51,937 bases of DNA, from NCBI GenBank assembly GCA_947447615.1, contig CANFJQ010000002.1, positions 1 to 51,937 on the forward strand, written 5' to 3'. The DNA is from Comamonadaceae bacterium (GTDB taxonomy: Bacteria > Pseudomonadota > Gammaproteobacteria > Burkholderiales > Burkholderiaceae_C). The notes under the pieces were generated by a model that was not told the DNA's origin, did no database searches, and saw only the letters and a program-made list of their open reading frames with translations. Of the stretch, positions 1 to 10,326 are shown one piece after another; positions within the stretch are counted from its first letter, which is position 1; the number at the start of each line of letters is the position of its first letter. A program made the translations under genes and the position numbers.

Positions 1-429
1 GACGAAAGTGATGATGGGCGTATCGCGCTGGCGGCAGACCTCGATCAAGCGGCGGGTTTGCGCCTCCACGCCATTGGCCGCATCAATCACCATCAGCGCC
101 GCATCCACGGCGGTGAGCACGCGGTATGTGTCTTCCGAAAAGTCTTTGTGTCCGGGTGTGTCCAAAAGATTAATCACATGCTCGCGGTACACCATTTGCA
201 TCACGCTGGACGCCACCGAAATACCGCGCTGCTTTTCGATCTCCATCCAGTCCGATGTGGCGTGGCGCGAAGCCTTGCGCGCCTTGACCGACCCAGCAAT
301 CTGAATCGCACCGGAAAATAGCAAGAGCTTTTCAGTCAGTGTGGTTTTACCGGCGTCGGGGTGGGAAATGATCGCAAAGGTGCGACGGCGGCGGGTTTCA
401 GAGGCGAAGGACAAAGCGGGGGATTCCAA
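1..429 (-). CDS. prfC: Peptide chain release factor 3 (RF-3), N-terminal part, runs off the left edge; TTG start proposed
   Basis: Reverse complement translates to ...[37 protein letters not shown]...[33 protein letters not shown]...[35 protein letters not shown], with translational-GTPase G1 and G3 motifs typical of RF-3. Confidence 0.93.
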
Positions 430-500
430 TGGGGCGGCGCAGGTCGCGCGAAGTTGGTTATTTTAAGATGGCCCTCTTGCTACATCAGGGAGCGTTGAAC

Positions 501-743
501 ATGTTGTTTGCAGTGGTATTTACCGATAAGCCCGGCCATGGCGCTTTGCGTGCCGAGTATCTGGCCGCGCATATTGCCTGGGTGGATGCGAACAAAGAAC
601 AAGTGCTGGTCGCCGGTTCGCTGCGCGAGAACCCGGCGGATGTGCCTAAAGGTGGCTTGTGGGTGGTGCAGGCCCCTGAAAAAGCTGATGTGCATGCGTT
701 GATGCAGACCGATCTATTTTTAAAACTAGAATTAAATGGTTAA
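501..743 (+). CDS. YciI-like protein, apparently shortened at the C-terminus
   Basis: MLFAVVFTDKPGHGALRAEYLAAHIAWVDANKEQVLVAGSLRENPADVPKGGLWVVQAPEKADVHALMQTDLF resembles YciI; the last residues (LKLELNG) are atypical and coincide with a drop in GC. Confidence 0.7.
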   Translation: MLFAVVFTDKPGHGALRAEYLAAHIAWVDANKEQVLVAGSLRENPADVPKGGLWVVQAPEKADVHALMQTDLFLKLELNG

Positions 744-986
744 ATAAATTGCAAATTAACAATAAAAAAGCATTATTGAGCAAATTTTGAACATTTATCT
801 TATATTATGGTTTCTTAGATCAACTCGTGTGAATTAGCTGGGAGGCTTTTGATGAGGGAAATTAATGAAATTCTGCGTTTTTGAATGATGGCTTTCAACG
901 CTATTGGTTTTAGGTGCATTGAGAAATACGGTCATAAAAATCAACAGCTCGAGACTGGATTGAAATTGTTTCAGGGAGAAAAAATC

Positions 987-1541
987 GTGAAATCTAAAAA
1001 TTGGAATGTCGTTAGAAAACTTCTATGCCTGCTACTTTTCGCGCATTCTTTTAATTCGTATGCTGCTTTTTCCGATTTTTTAATTCATTATCGAGTGCCA
1101 GGCTTTCTTCATTACTGCGTTAAAAATGGACCTAATCCAGAGGAAAATTTTTATCAATACAATGAAGAACATTGTCAGGAGCATTACAACAAGCCCTACT
1201 CCCAAGACTTTATTTGGATTTACAGTCCCGCGAAAAATAAAATAACAGTTGAGGCTAGGATTAATTGGGGAAAGGGCAGAGAGACCAATGTCACAGCACA
1301 TGGCTTCTACAATAAATTCTCTGATAAAGTAAAATTAAATTCATTTGAACCATCCGAGTGGGACAACGGTGATGAAACCGTGGACTCGAGCACTGGATTG
1401 TTAAAAAATACCTGCGAAGTATCAATTAGGCGCAGGAACAATAAATTTGAATTTAAACCAAAGGTAAAACTTGGTTGCAATCTTCCTGAACAGTTTCTCT
1501 GGACTGTAGGTAAAATGCCGGGGGTAAGAATAAAAAAATAA
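987..1541 (+). CDS. Hypothetical secreted protein in an AT-rich segment
   Basis: GTG start preceded by AGGGAG; signal-peptide-like N-terminus (KSKNWNVVRKLLCLLLFAHSFNSYAAF); several Cys; much lower GC than its neighbours. Confidence 0.6.
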   Translation: MKSKNWNVVRKLLCLLLFAHSFNSYAAFSDFLIHYRVPGFLHYCVKNGPNPEENFYQYNEEHCQEHYNKPYSQDFIWIYSPAKNKITVEARINWGKGRETNVTAHGFYNKFSDKVKLNSFEPSEWDNGDETVDSSTGLLKNTCEVSIRRRNNKFEFKPKVKLGCNLPEQFLWTVGKMPGVRIKK

Positions 1542-1563
1542 ATATATTAAGGAAAGCGTTCGT

Positions 1564-1720
1564 TTATTGAAACTCATACCAAACCCCCCTGCCACTCCCA
1601 TGCTGTTTCAAATACTGGCGCTCCACCAGATTCCGGAAATGTTGCTTGGGCGTATTGCGGTTGGCACCGGTTAATGCGACGGCGTGTACCTGTGGTTTGC
1701 GCCAAGGTGTGGAGGTATTG
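1564..1720 (-). pseudogene. Remnant of a winged-helix C-terminal domain (Fic/AlbA-associated type suspected)
   Basis: Minus-strand frame reads ...VHAVALTGANRNTPKQHFRNLVERQYLKQHGSGRGVWYEFQ*, a helix-turn-helix/wing-like tail with no upstream domain. Confidence 0.4.
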
Positions 1721-1773
1721 CACTGGGGCAAGGCGCTTTAAAGCCGCCAGACATTAATTTAAGGTTCCCCGAC

Positions 1774-1893
1774 TCAAAAAGTCTTTCGCGCAGCCTGCAA
1801 TACTTCCAGCAATTGCGCCACATCACCCTCGTGCTTGTGCAGGTGTGGCGTGATGCGGATGGCAGGTCCGCGGATGCTTACGTGGACGACATG
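1774..1893 (-). pseudogene. 3'-terminal fragment homologous to the class-V aminotransferase at 2755-3900
   Basis: Minus strand encodes HVVHVSIRGPAIRITPHLHKHEGDVAQLLEVLQAARKTF*, against QVHVSIRGPAIRITPHLYNHEGDVARLLEVLDKALRKA* at the end of the intact gene. Confidence 0.85.
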
Positions 1894-1915
1894 GGCTTAC
1901 CAGCGATGGCCTCAA

Positions 1916-2332
1916 TTAATCAGTCAGCGCCTCTATCGGCACCTGGAAGCGCTGTGCCAGAGCACGCACCTGACGCAGGTTAAGACTACGCTTGCCGGCA
2001 AGCACAGCAGACACAACACTCTGCGCCCCTATTTCAGGCAAGTCGCACTGGCGCAGGCCGTGTTGCTCCATTAAAAATGCCAGCCTGCTTTGCGGCGTGC
2101 CTGCATCAGGCCAAGGGTGCATCCTGTCCTCATACTCCCTGATGCGCAGCGCCACCCAATCGACCAAGACAAAAATGGGGTGGTCATCGTCAGCCCCAAA
2201 CTGCTCAAAGCAGTCGTCAACAAAACGTAGCATGTCGTTGTAGTGGGCCTCATCCCGGATGGGCGCACCCAAGCCTAATGCGGTGTTCACTGCGCCCCAC
2301 GGGGCCAAAATATCAGAGACCTTCATTTCCAA
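1916..2332 (-). CDS. higA: HigA-type antitoxin with C-terminal XRE helix-turn-helix
   Basis: 138 aa; acidic N-terminal part followed by HTH (LRQCDLPEIGAQSVVSAVLAGKRSLNLRQVRALAQRFQV); downstream of and overlapping a HigB-like toxin. Confidence 0.85.
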   Translation of the reverse strand: MEMKVSDILAPWGAVNTALGLGAPIRDEAHYNDMLRFVDDCFEQFGADDDHPIFVLVDWVALRIREYEDRMHPWPDAGTPQSRLAFLMEQHGLRQCDLPEIGAQSVVSAVLAGKRSLNLRQVRALAQRFQVPIEALTD

Positions 2333-2613
2333 GCTCCTTGGTCATATTCCTTGTGCGTCAGAACGGCTTTTACCCACACCAGTCCCGGTTTGAACGCAAT
2401 GGCCGCCACCAGCCGGTACTTGTTGCCGCCGATGTTGAACACGTAACGATCCTCCACTTTGTCCACACTGGCAAAAGTTGCCTTGAGCTGGGCAAAGTTG
2501 GTAAACATGCCATGCTCTATCAAGCGCCGAAAGTTTTGCAGCGGCTGCTGGGCGTCAGCATGTATCGCTGCGAATTCACGCAGCACTTTGTTGGAGATCA
2601 ACTTCATCGCCAT
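2323..2613 (-). CDS. higB: HigB-type mRNA interferase toxin
   Basis: MAMKLISNKVLREFAAIHADAQQPLQNFRRLI...FNIGGNKYRLVAAIAFKPGLVWVKAVLTHKEYD matches the HigB family pattern; 10 bp overlap with higA. Confidence 0.87.
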   Translation of the reverse strand: MAMKLISNKVLREFAAIHADAQQPLQNFRRLIEHGMFTNFAQLKATFASVDKVEDRYVFNIGGNKYRLVAAIAFKPGLVWVKAVLTHKEYDQGAWK

Positions 2614-2620
2614 GGGTAAA

Positions 2621-2637
2621 TATAGCATATTGCTATA
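2621..2637. promoter_or_regulatory. Palindromic putative HigA operator upstream of higB
   Basis: TATAGCA-TAT-TGCTATA, a perfect 7 bp inverted repeat ending 7 bp upstream of the proposed higB start. Confidence 0.6.
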
Positions 2638-2754
2638 AATATTTGGTTCCCTGTACGCTAGAAAGCCGGTGTGCCAGGGGCTCAAGGCATTACGTGGCGC
2701 CTACAGTTCGCCCCGGCGGGTGTCGGTGTAGGTTTAAAGGCTTTACCAGGTCAC

Positions 2755-3900
2755 CTAAGCCTTGCGCAAGGCCTTGTCCAAGACTTCCAGCAATCGCGCC
2801 ACATCGCCCTCGTGGTTGTACAGATGCGGCGTGATGCGAATGGCCGGTCCGCGGATACTGACATGGACTTGGGCGGCAGCCATTTGTCCGGTCAAGCTGG
2901 GCGGTATAGGACCCGGCCAGCGCAGGCCCAAAAAATGGCCGGCGCGCAAATGCGCGGGCGCGGCGTGCAAGCCCCAGGGCGCCACTTGCGCGGCGATGCG
3001 GTCGGTCAGGCCGCCCAGGGTGTGCGCGATGCGCGCCACCTGCCAGGCGGTAATTTGTTCCAGCGCGGCCATGGCCATAGGGAGGGCGACGAAGTTGGCG
3101 CGCTCGCCCATGTCGTAGCGCCGGGCGCCCGCAGCGTAGCCTTCTCGGTAATCGACCAGGCGCGCAAAGTCATGCGCGGCTTCGCGGTTGGCCCAGTTTT
3201 CTTCCAGCGGCTGGCCGTCCTGCCAGCGCGGCGCCACATACAAAAAGCCCAGGCTGTAAGGCCCCAGCAGCCATTTGTAGGTAGCCGCCACCAAAAAGTC
3301 GGGCCGCAGCTGCGATACATCCAGAGGCAAAGCGCCCAGGGACTGGGTGGCGTCGACCAATAACAATCCGCCGTGCGTGTCCAGCGCCAGCCGCACCGCT
3401 ATCAGGTCGATCAGGCCGCCGTCGGTCCAGTGGCAGTGGCTGAGCACCGCCAACCGGGTGCGGGCATCGATAGCAGCCAGGATGGCGCGCGTCCAATCGC
3501 CGTCCTGCGGACGGTCCACGGTGACGATGCCCGCACCGGCAAGCCGCGCCGCGCGGCGCAAGGGGTAGAGGTTGGAGGGAAATTCGTCGCCGCAGATCAG
3601 CACCTGGTCGCCCGCCTGCAATCGGATGTTTTTCAGGGCTGTTTCGATGCCATAGGAGGCCGAGCCGACGATGGCGATGTCATCGGTTTGCGGGCCTATC
3701 AGGCGCGCAAATAGGCCGCGGGCCTGGTCTGGGAGCGAGAAAAAGTCCGCCGGGCGCACCCGCCAGGGCTGGGTTTTACCTGCTATGCCCTGCTGGCCCG
3801 CTGCGGAGGCGCTGCGCAAAAGGGGCGACATATAGGCGCAGTTGAAGTAGGCGACGTCCTCTGGGATGTCGAAAAGCGCGCGCTGACAGGGGATCGTCAT
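2755..3900 (-). CDS. PLP-dependent class-V aminotransferase (cysteine desulfurase/selenocysteine lyase-like)
   Basis: Contains LLLVDATQSLGALPLDVSQLRPDFLVAATYKWLLGPYSLGFLYV (PLP-lysine region) and the full class-V fold order. Confidence 0.88.
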   Translation of the reverse strand: MTIPCQRALFDIPEDVAYFNCAYMSPLLRSASAAGQQGIAGKTQPWRVRPADFFSLPDQARGLFARLIGPQTDDIAIVGSASYGIETALKNIRLQAGDQVLICGDEFPSNLYPLRRAARLAGAGIVTVDRPQDGDWTRAILAAIDARTRLAVLSHCHWTDGGLIDLIAVRLALDTHGGLLLVDATQSLGALPLDVSQLRPDFLVAATYKWLLGPYSLGFLYVAPRWQDGQPLEENWANREAAHDFARLVDYREGYAAGARRYDMGERANFVALPMAMAALEQITAWQVARIAHTLGGLTDRIAAQVAPWGLHAAPAHLRAGHFLGLRWPGPIPPSLTGQMAAAQVHVSIRGPAIRITPHLYNHEGDVARLLEVLDKALRKA

Positions 3901-4034
3901 AACAGGTGCTAAGGATAGGGGGTAGTAGAGAAAGCGGACATGGTCACATCCTAAGTGGCGGCTCAAGTAAATCGTATTGGTGTCGATAAAGAGATATCGA
4001 AAAACCTTTGAGGCCTTCACCTGGTTGCCGAAAG

Positions 4035-7000
4035 ATGAAATTTCTCTTAATTTGCGCGATGGCGCTTGCCTTGGCTGCTTGTGGCGGCGGCCAGGACAAT
4101 GCTAGTTTAGGGCCTGTGCAGGGCGTGGGTCCAGGTACACCCCTGCGCGGTACGGTGGCCGTTGGCCTTGCGCTGGCGGGCGCCAAGGTCGCGGCAAAAT
4201 GCAGAAGCAACGATAAGCATACCTATGAAAATCTAACGCTAAGCCTATCCAACCCCACGGTGTTTACCTTGCCCTCCACCCAAGGCGACTATCTTGAAAA
4301 CGCCTTGTTTAATGGGCAGGTGGTGAATTTGGGTGCGAGCATTCATTTGCCTGGCAAATTGAGTAAATACCAAATTTACTACGTCGTGGGATTAAAGTTG
4401 CTTGATGATGGCAGATACGAGTTCAAACTCTCCGATGATCCGTTAGATCCCGCCAGCCTGCTCAACACTCTAGGCAACACGCTTGAGGGCAGCTTTTCAT
4501 TGATCACTAGCAATGTGGTGACAGAACAAGTAACTGCGGACGGTTCTGGCGTTTATAGTTTTTCCAAATTAGCATATCTGGGTGCCAGGGCGCCATGTAT
4601 CTTAGAGGCCACCGGTGGCACACAAACAGACGGCGCACCATCGGTAGCGGTGATGCATTCGATTGCGAACGATATTAACGGCCTGGCCAATATCACTCCG
4701 CTCACGGAGTCCCTATTGGCGATTTTGTTGCAATCGGGAGATTTGAGTAATTATTTTGCGCATTTCGACGAGAGCAGTGCCTTTCAGTTGCGCGACCTCG
4801 CAAGCACAGTCAACATTCAAAAGGCTTGGGACAAAATTAAGGCGCGCCTGACCAACAATGGAATTGATTCCAGTGCCATTGCAAGTAACCCTATGACCGA
4901 GCTATTGGTCCCAAAGTCGACGCCTCAATCCAATGACGGCAATGCTTATGACAAATTGCTGGACAAAATAAAAACAACGGCACTGAGTACGGAAGCGGCG
5001 CCCTATGCCAAAGTGCTCAACGGCAAAGAGGCTTTAATTACGCTAGTCAAGCTTGACAGCCGTGGCTTGCCCTTGAAAAATCAGTTCGCGAAATGGGTGG
5101 ACAACGGCAGTGAGCTCGATGGCACGCGATGGGATTGCGTTCACGATACGGCCACCGGTATCTACTGGGAAGTCAAGCGCAATGACCCTAATCACTTTCG
5201 CCATAAGGGTCACAAATATACTTGGTATGACACCGGCAAATTAAATGGCGGTGACCCTGGGGCCGAGCAAAACGCCACATGTACCGGCGTCGAGGATCCT
5301 ATTAAATGCAATACTCAAAGCTATGTTAAAGCGGTGAACAGTGCGCGCTTGTGTGGCTTTGATGCTTGGGTGGTGCCCGATGTGGATACCTTCCAAAAAT
5401 TTCCGCTCAATAACGCGTCTGCAGTGATCGCGAACACGGATTATTTTCCGGATATCCAATCGGAGCCGTTGGCCAGCACGCCCCTGTGGACCCGCACGCC
5501 CAGCGCCAACAATGCAGATGGCAAATATGCCTGGACCTTCAATTTGACCAAGGGCCAAGTACAGGATGGCTTGAAAGTGGTGGCCCGTCCGGTACGGCTC
5601 ATGTTGTCGGTGGAGACGGTAAAAATTGCGAGTATTTCCAGCGCCAACAAAATCACATTGTCGCAGGCACCCAGCACTCCGATCACACCTTTACCCATGC
5701 TTCCCAACGACAATTCCGTTTTGTTCTCCGATCGGTTGCTCACGCTTCGCTCTGATGGTGTGCTCAATCCTCCATTGGCGCAAACTGCGAGCTACTTTCC
5801 CGTGGCCTTGGATAACACGACTTCGCCAGGCCCTTCGTTTCAATTAGCAGCTGTGTCTAGGGGGCAGGCGCTAGGCACATCGACGACGAGCAACGCATCC
5901 ACTTCCGAGCTGCCCACAAGCTACGTGGTGTTTGAAACCCGGCAAGCGGAAAAGCTGGAAGACGCGAGCTACTGCAATGGCGCTATCGAGTCAACGCGCC
6001 CTGAGAAGCGTTACAAGTTAGCTGCCGGCGAAGTGACCGATACAGTAACTAAATTGGTCTGGAAACAATGTGCCGAAGGTTTAAGCGGCGATAAGTGCGA
6101 CGTCGGCAGGGCCAAGGATTACGGTTTTTCAGATGCGAAGGCTGTTGCTACGGGGAGTTGGCGCTTGCCTACGCGAGCGGAACTCGCCACTTTGGTTGAA
6201 AGAAAATGTACCGGTGTATGGAAAAAGCAGGTCATCGCCAGTGGCTTGTGGATGAGCACCCGTTTATTTACGATCACAGGCGGCTGGGAGCAAGAGGCGC
6301 AATGGAGTACGCCGGTCGCTGTAGATTCCGCAGGCATGGAGTTCAGTGGCGATGGCACCAAAGATTGGCATGCAGAGGCCTCTAGCAGCGATTACTTTAT
6401 GCGCAAAAAGTCGCCGGTCGGTCCCGTAATGCGCATTGCGGGTGAATCGGGGTTTGGTTGGCGTGATGGCGTTCCTGCAAACCCGACGGGCCAATCGCTT
6501 CCCTTGTGGATGACGCAGCGAATTTTTACGGCTAACGGTAAGTCTCCGCAAGAAGCTCAATGGTCTACGCCGGTCGAGATAAAAGACGGCAGTACGTTGA
6601 AATTTAGTGCAGATGGCTTGTCCTACCATTTCCCGCCAGCGAGTAATGATGTCTTTATGATCGACACTAAGGACGCTGCGCCGACTATGATCCGCGGCGA
6701 AGCGGGTGGCGTCACCAGTACGGTTACGCAAGTCAAGGGCGTGGCTTTTTATCGGGGTAATTACACCGAAGATCTTTATCCTAAAGGTGGCAGCTTCTCA
6801 GCGCCTACGCCTGACTACCCATTGTTAACGACGGCCTCCAAGCAGGCGATGGTCACGGGCATTACTTTTTATCGGGGTAATTATTCGCCAGGTACTCCGG
6901 TGGGGGGGTCTTTCGAAAATCCAACACCTATGAGTAGCGGTTGGAGCGATGGGGTGCCGGAGCAATTGACCGGTAACGCTCCCGTTTCTGCAGCCGATTC

Positions 7001-7199
7001 GGCGCAGGCTATCCATCCAAAGTTATTTCCCCAGGCCAGCAGCCAGCCCTATCCTCAAATATTTTGGACGTCCAGTGCTGTGTCGGGTACCTCGGCGGCT
7101 TGGGCTATCAATTTTTACAACGGCTTTGAACTACCGCTGGACACAGTCAATCCTCCTCAGCCCGTATTTGTGCGGTTGGTGCGATCCACCACGCCCTAG
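4035..7199 (+). CDS. Large lipoprotein with two Lcl/DUF1566-like domains and inserted internal repeats
   Basis: Lipobox MKFLLICAMALALAACGGG; DUF1566-like segments (WDCVHDTATGIYWEVK...WVVPDVDTFQKF...; WRLPTRAELATLVERKC...FWTSSAVSGTSAAWAINFYNG...VFVRLVR); duplicated LWM(S/T)..R.FT....EAQWSTPV modules. Confidence 0.8.
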   Translation: MKFLLICAMALALAACGGGQDNASLGPVQGVGPGTPLRGTVAVGLALAGAKVAAKCRSNDKHTYENLTLSLSNPTVFTLPSTQGDYLENALFNGQVVNLGASIHLPGKLSKYQIYYVVGLKLLDDGRYEFKLSDDPLDPASLLNTLGNTLEGSFSLITSNVVTEQVTADGSGVYSFSKLAYLGARAPCILEATGGTQTDGAPSVAVMHSIANDINGLANITPLTESLLAILLQSGDLSNYFAHFDESSAFQLRDLASTVNIQKAWDKIKARLTNNGIDSSAIASNPMTELLVPKSTPQSNDGNAYDKLLDKIKTTALSTEAAPYAKVLNGKEALITLVKLDSRGLPLKNQFAKWVDNGSELDGTRWDCVHDTATGIYWEVKRNDPNHFRHKGHKYTWYDTGKLNGGDPGAEQNATCTGVEDPIKCNTQSYVKAVNSARLCGFDAWVVPDVDTFQKFPLNNASAVIANTDYFPDIQSEPLASTPLWTRTPSANNADGKYAWTFNLTKGQVQDGLKVVARPVRLMLSVETVKIASISSANKITLSQAPSTPITPLPMLPNDNSVLFSDRLLTLRSDGVLNPPLAQTASYFPVALDNTTSPGPSFQLAAVSRGQALGTSTTSNASTSELPTSYVVFETRQAEKLEDASYCNGAIESTRPEKRYKLAAGEVTDTVTKLVWKQCAEGLSGDKCDVGRAKDYGFSDAKAVATGSWRLPTRAELATLVERKCTGVWKKQVIASGLWMSTRLFTITGGWEQEAQWSTPVAVDSAGMEFSGDGTKDWHAEASSSDYFMRKKSPVGPVMRIAGESGFGWRDGVPANPTGQSLPLWMTQRIFTANGKSPQEAQWSTPVEIKDGSTLKFSADGLSYHFPPASNDVFMIDTKDAAPTMIRGEAGGVTSTVTQVKGVAFYRGNYTEDLYPKGGSFSAPTPDYPLLTTASKQAMVTGITFYRGNYSPGTPVGGSFENPTPMSSGWSDGVPEQLTGNAPVSAADSAQAIHPKLFPQASSQPYPQIFWTSSAVSGTSAAWAINFYNGFELPLDTVNPPQPVFVRLVRSTTP

Positions 7200-7372
7200 T
7201 TAGCCTAACGGCGGACTTGGACTTTAGTGCGCATCGGCCCTTACGCTCAGCGCAGCCAGATCCCTTACGCCTTGCTGGAGTCCGGGCTAGGCTTGCCTTG
7301 TGACAATCAGCGAGCCGGTGTTTACACTGGCCTTCAATGCACTAAGCCCTGGCCAGTCCTGGCCTTCACCCC

Positions 7373-8014: not shown

Positions 8015-9466
8015 ATGAACGCTGTATTGAAACCCATCAAAAACCAAGACTATGAAATTGCCGACCTGAGCCTCGCCGCTTGGGGTCGCAAAGAACTCAA
8101 CATTGCCGAGACCGAAATGCCCGGCCTGATGGCGATTCGCGAAGAATTCGCTAAGGCGCAACCCCTCAAAGGCGCGCGCATCACCGGATCGCTGCATATG
8201 ACGATCCAGACCGCCGTGCTGGTTGAAACCCTGCAAGCCCTGGGCGCGCAAGTGCGCTGGGCTTCTTGCAACATCTTCTCTACCCAAGACCACGCCGCCG
8301 CCGCCTTGGTGGCTGCCGGTACCCCGGTGTTTGCCTACAAAGGCGAGTCCCTGGAGGACTATTGGGATTACACCCACCGTATTTTTGAATTCGGCGGTAA
8401 AAAAGGCTCAGCCGCTGAAGGCCCGAACATGATTTTGGACGACGGCGGCGACGCCACGCTGCTCATGCACCTGGGCGCAAAGGCCGAGAAAGACCTCAAA
8501 GTACTGGCCAAGCCCGGCAGCGAAGAAGAAGTTTGCTTGTTCAAAGCCATCAAAGCCAAGCTCAAAGTCGACCCGACCTGGTACAGCCGCCGCCTGAAAA
8601 ACATCATCGGCGTGACCGAAGAGACCACTACCGGCGTACTTCGCTTGAATGAAATGGCCGCCCGTGGCGATTTGGCTTTCCGTGCCATCAACGTCAATGA
8701 TTCGGTGACCAAGAGCAAGTTCGACAACCTGTACGGCTGCCGCGAGTCCTTGGTCGATGCCATCAAGCGCGCTACCGACGTCATGATCGCCGGCAAAGTG
8801 GCCCTGGTGGCCGGTTACGGCGATGTGGGCAAGGGCTCGGCCCAAGCGCTGCGCGCCCTGTCCGCGCAAGTGTGGGTGACCGAGATCGACCCGATCAACG
8901 CTTTGCAAGCCGCTATGGAAGGCTACAAAGTCGTCACTATGGAATACGCAGCCGACAAGGCCGACATCTTTGTGTCCGCCACCGGCAACAAAAACGTCAT
9001 CACCTACAAGCACATGGCGGCCATGAAAGACCAAGCCATCGTCTGCAATATCGGCCACTTTGACAACGAGATCGATGTCGAATCCCTGTCCAAATGCAAG
9101 TGGGAAGAGATCAAGCCCCAAGTGGACCATGTGATTTTCCCGGCCAAAGGCAAAACGCCTGCCAAGCGCATCATCTTGTTGGCCAAAGGCCGCTTGGTGA
9201 ACCTGGGCTGCGGCACCGGCCACCCCAGCTTTGTGATGTCTTCCAGCTTTGCCAACCAGACGATTGCCCAGATCGAGCTGTTCACCAAGCCCAAGGAATA
9301 CAAAAACGGCAAGGTCTATGTGCTGCCCAAGCACCTAGACGAAAAAGTGGCCCGCCTGCACCTGAAGAAGGTTGGCGCCATGCTGACTGAGCTGACCCAA
9401 GAGCAGGCCGATTACATCGGCGTGAGCAAGGCCGGCCCCTACAAAGCGGACACCTACCGGTATTGA
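8015..9466 (+). CDS. ahcY: Adenosylhomocysteinase
   Basis: [45 protein letters not shown]...ending [13 protein letters not shown]-binding [14 protein letters not shown]. Confidence 0.97.
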
Positions 9467-9477
9467 TGCGCCACTGA

Positions 9478-10326
9478 ATGCGCATTGACCAATTGCTGGT
9501 GCACCGCCAGCATGCCAGCACCCGTTCGCAGGCGCAGCGCCTGATTGCCGATGGGGTGTTGTGGCAGCAAGGGGACGCGTGGAAACGCATCCTCAAAAAC
9601 GGCGACGAAGTCCCCGAGGACGCGCCGCTTAAGCTGCTCAATGCCCAAGAGGCGCGCTATGTGTCGCGCGGTGGTCTCAAGCTCGAGGCCGCCTTGGCGC
9701 ATGTGCAATTGGACGTCAGTGGCATGGCATGCCTGGATGTGGGCCAGTCCACCGGAGGCTTTACCGACTGCTTGTTGCAGCGCGGTGCAGCATCCGTGGT
9801 GGGTGTGGACGTCGGTAGCGCGCAGTTGCATCCGCAATTGCGCACCGACCCGCGCGTGCTATGTGTGGAAAAAGTCAATGCGCGCGCTTTGACAGCCGAC
9901 GATTTGCTGCAAGCCTACGAAGACAGCATTGGCGAGCAAGGGGTGTTTGATAGTGGCGAGGAGCCTGACGAAGACGAAGCAGCGGTGCCCAGTTTTTCAC
10001 CGGCTTTTGACCTGATCGTTGCGGACTTGTCCTTTATCTCGCAAACCTTGGTTTTGCCTGCGGTGGTCGCCCTGCTCAAGCCGGGCGGCAGCTTGCTCAC
10101 CCTGGTCAAGCCGCAGTTTGAACTGCAGCCCGGTCAGGTGGGCAAAGGCGGCATCGTCAAAGACGCATCTCTGTATCTATTTGTTGAGCAGCGCTTGCGT
10201 GATGCATGCGCCGCCCTTGGCCTGGAGGTCACTGCGTGGTTCGATTCCCCCATTGCCGGCGGGGATGGCAACCGCGAGTTTTTTATCTGCGCCCGGCATC
10301 CGGGCCTTGACCCTTCTTCCAAATGA
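9478..10326 (+). CDS. tlyA: TlyA-family rRNA 2'-O-methyltransferase (S4 plus FtsJ-like domains)
   Basis: MRIDQLLVHRQHASTRSQAQRLIADG (S4), YVSRGGLKLEAAL...CLDVGQSTGGFTDCLLQRGA (SAM motif). Confidence 0.93.
   Translation: MRIDQLLVHRQHASTRSQAQRLIADGVLWQQGDAWKRILKNGDEVPEDAPLKLLNAQEARYVSRGGLKLEAALAHVQLDVSGMACLDVGQSTGGFTDCLLQRGAASVVGVDVGSAQLHPQLRTDPRVLCVEKVNARALTADDLLQAYEDSIGEQGVFDSGEEPDEDEAAVPSFSPAFDLIVADLSFISQTLVLPAVVALLKPGGSLLTLVKPQFELQPGQVGKGGIVKDASLYLFVEQRLRDACAALGLEVTAWFDSPIAGGDGNREFFICARHPGLDPSSK

Follow-up and report, generated by a model that had tools for sequence, protein, structure and literature searches.

How did a small toxin-antitoxin (TA) module come to lie between an intact aminotransferase gene and an extra, in-frame copy of that gene's 3' end? 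An earlier sequence-only reading of this window (the whole stretch analyzed, 51,937 nt, which is one entire contig of a 2.9-Mb, 221-contig genome assembly, code G000) gave the minus-strand order as class-V aminotransferase (AT), then higB-higA, then the last ~37 codons of an AT with their own stop, and proposed that an element had integrated into the 3' end of a gene and restored it. Open reading frames, Pfam matches and alignment confirm that order, and its description of the second gene end as homologous but diverged is also correct; the proposed origin holds in part.

The module and the two gene ends

The AT gene (2755..3900, minus strand; an intact open reading frame from ATG, with an Aminotran_5 match in Pfam, E 3.6e-20) is the gene whose end recurs, and its own 3' end, designated type P, terminates in LRKA before the stop. 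A 90-nt core within that end (2779..2868, minus strand, AT codons ~345-374) constitutes the proximal repeat copy and aligns with 1798-1887 at 78 of 90 nt (87% identity, E 2e-28), a value that rules out a chance repeat. The distal AT gene end (1774..1887, minus strand), homologous to AT and in frame with it, reads ...AHVVHVSIRGPAIRITPHLHKHEGDVAQLLEVLQAARKTF up to its own stop and terminates at 1774; its last ~8 codons are of another type, type D, as in the single AT end of the related genome G010. Its AT homology starts at codon ~342-345, and the residues 5' of there (AHV...) are not AT sequence. Because a stop codon lies close upstream (1897-1899) and no start codon is evident, the distal copy is not a gene. 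A whole-genome search found these two AT ends only, and since the same layout recurs in two other, independently assembled genomes (MAGs), an assembly artefact is ruled out.

The toxin gene higB (2323..2607, minus strand) matches PF09907 HigB_toxin (E 2.6e-26) and PDB chains 5ycl/5ifg (E ~3e-12), and the antitoxin gene higA (1916..2326, minus strand), whose start overlaps the end of higB at 2323 by ATGA, matches 5ifg_B (E 5.8e-11) and, weakly, HTH_3. The two proteins have matches among solved HigB/HigA chains (5ifg, 5ycl, 6kml), and by these family matches, toxin followed by HTH antitoxin, the pair is predicted to be a bona fide HigBA type II TA module. The spacer between the AT stop and higB (2608..2754, minus strand) has a homologue in the related genomes G020 and G035 and is missing in G041. 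Alignment of higB upstream regions places a palindrome, TATAGCATATTGCTATA (2621..2637), just 5' of higB; it is mostly kept among close higBA relatives and is likely to serve as a promoter/operator. On the other side of the module the alignment shows the joint (1888..1915, minus strand), where conserved sequence downstream of higA, ~24-30 nt long, gives way to AT codon ~342-345. This joint 3' of higA, at AT codon ~342, is identical in place in four higBA genomes (the window, G020, G035 and G041), and a single founding event for all four is therefore likely.

The surrounding spot and its states in relatives

Beyond the distal gene end lies native sequence. The segment 1688..1773 comprises the AT-yciI intergenic region and the last yciI codons, TCGLRQGVEVLHWGKAL with the stop (plus strand), as identified by translation and by its match to the flank in G002. 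The 5' part of yciI (429..720, plus strand; identified by Pfam, relatives and translation) is interrupted by a separate A+T-rich insertion of ~967 bp (721..1687, 37% G+C), which carries an orphan 218-aa open reading frame without family (885-1541) and a short winged-helix-like fragment (1567-1689); past it, at 1688, the yciI tail picks up again. The 5' part of prfC (1..429, minus strand) forms the left border of a variable spot that extends to a thioesterase gene (4HBT), with ahcY beyond. This interval, 430-7372 in the window, ranges from ~80 bp to 7.7 kb across species, being down to ~80 bp in G135 and G121 and ~4-7.7 kb in the window's group. In other genomes it holds BrnT with a CopG-type antitoxin plus ParE (G134), a ParDE-like pair as read from sequence (G139), or an MNT/HepT pair (G055); the prfC-thioesterase interval is thus a variable, TA-rich spot.

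The spot is at the 5' side of prfC, a gene that is a known target of integrative and conjugative elements (ICEs; SXT/R391). Also within it, at 4008-7199 of the window, is the gene of a large Lcl_C-domain protein whose DNA is only ~60% identical to the G020 counterpart, while the thioesterase gene and ahcY beside it are 89-100% identical between the same two genomes; either fast divergence or allele replacement may be responsible. Identity of the G020 prfC to relatives falls to ~65% at a contig end (L009, ~9330-9583), which is possibly chimeric.

Those relatives that carry a name are freshwater Comamonadaceae-type MAGs. Across relatives this locus is present in several states. Relatives without higBA were expected, on the sequence-only reading, to show a single uninterrupted gene end, and G002 does so: AT, with one intact end, is followed by yciI and prfC. 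In G010, likewise without higBA, AT is a pseudogene in three pieces with its end adjoining prfC. G041 has an N-terminal remnant of AT, higBA, a frameshifted AT end, yciI and prfC. The most elaborate arrangement is that of G020 and G035: a full AT, a triple RidA gene (Ribonuc_L-PSP x3), a second and decayed AT end (in G020 extending back to codon ~303 and damaged by deletions and a stop), higBA, then a third AT end that stays in frame up to its stop, and prfC. G055 has higA without recognizable higB, together with its MNT/HepT pair and without AT; both AT and higBA are missing from G140, and G129 has yciI remnants only. In Limnohabitans-like genomes (L012, L013) AT lies in a different neighborhood, so that they are of no help in rooting the spot.

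Two further observations concern the cargo genes. One open reading frame with three tandem RidA-type domains occurs in two genomes of the window's group (L009 6211-7533, L011 6207-7472), and elsewhere as one diverged copy, in G138. The higB of G120 consists of two pieces separated by ~1.7 kb (L147 216-2163), and the toxin gene appears to have been broken by an insertion.

Resident end, newcomer allele and the probable manner of joining

Which of the two window ends is resident is indicated by the flank. Window positions 1688-1887, containing the AT end and the yciI end, align to G002 6232-6027, and the native yciI flank adjoins the distal copy, not the proximal one; the distal copy is therefore the resident AT end, and the newcomer is the AT allele upstream of higBA. 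When all ends are placed in one tree, those in distal position in G000, G020 and G035 cluster with the single end of G010 (support 95/92). The AT-end trees were built on 129 columns and are weak evidence, and the support for placing the window distal copy comes mostly from its last ~8 codons. The topology pairing both window copies is disfavored but not firmly rejected (p-AU 0.062), and a tree of the AT body gives no resolution. Within the distal copy the last 24 nt match G010 at 18/24 positions versus 6/24 for the window's own proximal end, whereas its 87-nt body matches the proximal type at 75/87 and the G020 distal end at 62/87. With a P-like body and a type D tail the window distal copy is thus a mosaic, probably produced by later conversion between the repeats. 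The distal end of G041 is P-like despite the common higBA joint.

Between the window AT ends there are 9 synonymous and 3 nonsynonymous differences (dN/dS 0.08, from a comparison that left out the G020/G035 distal ends and the higA row of G041), a ratio implying that most of the divergence arose while both were ends of functional genes in different lineages. This bears on another origin that the sequence-only reading had allowed, decay of a tandem paralogue. Spelled out, higBA would have come to lie between or within two adjacent AT genes of an ancestor, followed later by RidA, and the downstream AT copy would have shrunk to its last codons. The longer remnant in G020/G035, reaching back to codon ~303, the N-terminal AT remnant that faces the AT end across higBA in G041, and an AT already reduced to a pseudogene in G010 are what such decay might leave. 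Yet two full AT genes occur in 0 of 103 genus members and 0 of 401 family members, only one AT end is present in G002 and in G010, and purifying selection acted during most of the divergence between the two ends; decay of a tandem pair is unlikely, though it deserves to be kept in view.

The proposal of integration into a gene's 3' end finds support in the empty site of G002 and in the distal copy on its native flank, whereas a dedicated element is not supported. In its explicit form, Campbell-type or site-specific integration, a small circular element carrying an AT end and higBA would have inserted with an integrase supplied in trans or since lost. The layout is indeed the classical footprint of such an event, with a regenerated gene end and a displaced fragment (as defined in PMC4383910), and the repeat starts at codon ~342 in the four genomes that have one joint. 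No phage-integrase family (PF00589) match is present in or near the cargo or anywhere in the window's contig, bearing out the remark that no integrase is present as far as this family is concerned; the genome's matches are on other contigs. Nor is the boundary constant across independent insertions, since the repeat start differs per round (codon ~342 for higBA versus ~303 for RidA), and no conserved att core was identified. The further expectation that gene-end repeats would flank higBA elsewhere failed among the genus loci examined, several of whose flanks end at contig ends. The sequence-only reading had also named the repeat without higBA as evidence against itself, and this is found in part, in that the AT-end repeat brackets the RidA-type gene as well in G020/G035. 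Integration of a circular element is accordingly judged improbable. As to carriers, relatives of the AT and HigA proteins are absent from viral contigs by the scans used, so that no phage carrier of either was found; plasmid relatives of HigA are common, and since they are <60% identical, with one exception at 60-80%, a recent plasmid source is ruled out.

There are also signs of ordinary recombination. Comparison of G020 with G035 gives ~95% identity over the stretch that starts right after AT, spans RidA and higBA and runs into prfC, against ~85-90% for the ahcY side and the greater part of AT; this step indicates that recombination transferred the cargo block, with a breakpoint close to the end of AT. 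Between G000 and G020 higB has a dS of 0.03 versus 0.3-0.5 for the adjacent AT ends, and the spacer and AT ends beside higB are 20-30% different. The observed architecture, empty sites, flank identity and mosaic divergence are best explained, with somewhat better than even confidence, as the scar of repeated AT-anchored homologous recombination with non-homologous downstream joining in the variable prfC-thioesterase spot, which suggests that higBA arrived by ordinary recombination at AT and not by a dedicated integrating element. The incoming DNA, a diverged AT allele with higBA downstream, would have recombined homologously inside AT, and its far end, just beyond higA, would have been fused without homology to the resident AT within that gene's final ~37 codons. 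The newcomer allele would then complete a functional AT, and the resident gene end would be displaced behind higBA while still attached to its native yciI flank; a resident end at that flank with a newcomer allele upstream is the arrangement seen, its tail of type D and its body P-like. In G020/G035 a second round would have placed a new AT allele and the triple RidA gene in front and left the second remnant, and higBA may afterwards have been partly exchanged between species by ordinary recombination.

Such an event would amount to RecA-type recombination with one illegitimate joint, that is, homology-facilitated illegitimate recombination (HFIR), a process that has been described in natural transformation (PMC3240628) and has been proposed to act in T6SS arrays (PMC5361080). 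Natural transformation is probably the route here as well; ComEC-type competence sequences are present in the genome, split over two contigs. A donor haplotype, AT-higBA with a single AT end, was not found among the genomes searched, and the HFIR mechanism is therefore one that we infer. Once in place higBA may have persisted through addiction to the module itself, through retention of an intact AT on one side, or through both.

The order of events could also be reversed, with higBA breaking the resident AT near codon 342 and an intact allele later replacing the 5' part. G041, with its N-terminal remnant, higBA and AT end, looks like that initial broken state, and the right joint is identical in all four genomes, but a deletion may equally have removed a full AT from G041, whose distal end carries a frameshift; moreover, G000 and G020/G035 have homologous spacers between AT and higB, and these are not the flank that follows AT in G002. 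Insertion followed by rescue is very improbable. A bolder extension of AT-anchored recombination, which we regard as quite unlikely, is that the AT gene end is a reusable landing pad to which small cargo modules (RidA, HigBA) are added serially, each leaving a gene-end repeat; if true, the array would record successive captures, integron-like but without an integrase.

Comparison with known systems

The most interesting part of the locus is the stacked second round in G020/G035. Read as a recombination scar, the locus would show how small TA modules enter and spread through chromosomes without a mobility gene; it is one where leftover gene ends tell the resident allele from the new one, and, in a freshwater betaproteobacterial group, it puts on record a variable spot at prfC that is rich in TA genes. 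The module itself looks ordinary, resembling known HigBA type II systems (PDB 5ifg, 5ycl, 6kml) in toxin-antitoxin order, sizes and sequence.

Like tDNA islands (Islander, PMC4383910) and SGI1 in trmE (PMC8409611), a regenerated end and a displaced fragment bracket the cargo, but unlike gene-3'-end islands there is no integrase, the cargo is <1 kb, the target is not a tRNA gene and the boundary is not constant. The locus is also like the short variable segments of PMC2884548, sub-kilobase to kilobase in size and accounted for by homology-assisted recombination; unlike them, it retains a leftover gene end by which resident and newcomer can be told apart, and the footprint occurs twice at one locus. 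Further parallels are the HFIR displacement arrays, the Vibrio cholerae T6SS effector-immunity arrays (PMC5361080) and the rhs C-terminal displacements (PMC2935791), in which likewise a conserved 5' anchor recombines, new cargo arrives at its 3' side, the old 3' end is moved downstream and rounds can stack. Here, in contrast, a metabolic PLP-enzyme gene takes the place of an effector as anchor, an unrelated TA module or RidA gene is carried along, and the leftover gene end lacks a start of its own. The scar adds one more case to a known type of event, and the cargo in this case is an ordinary TA module.
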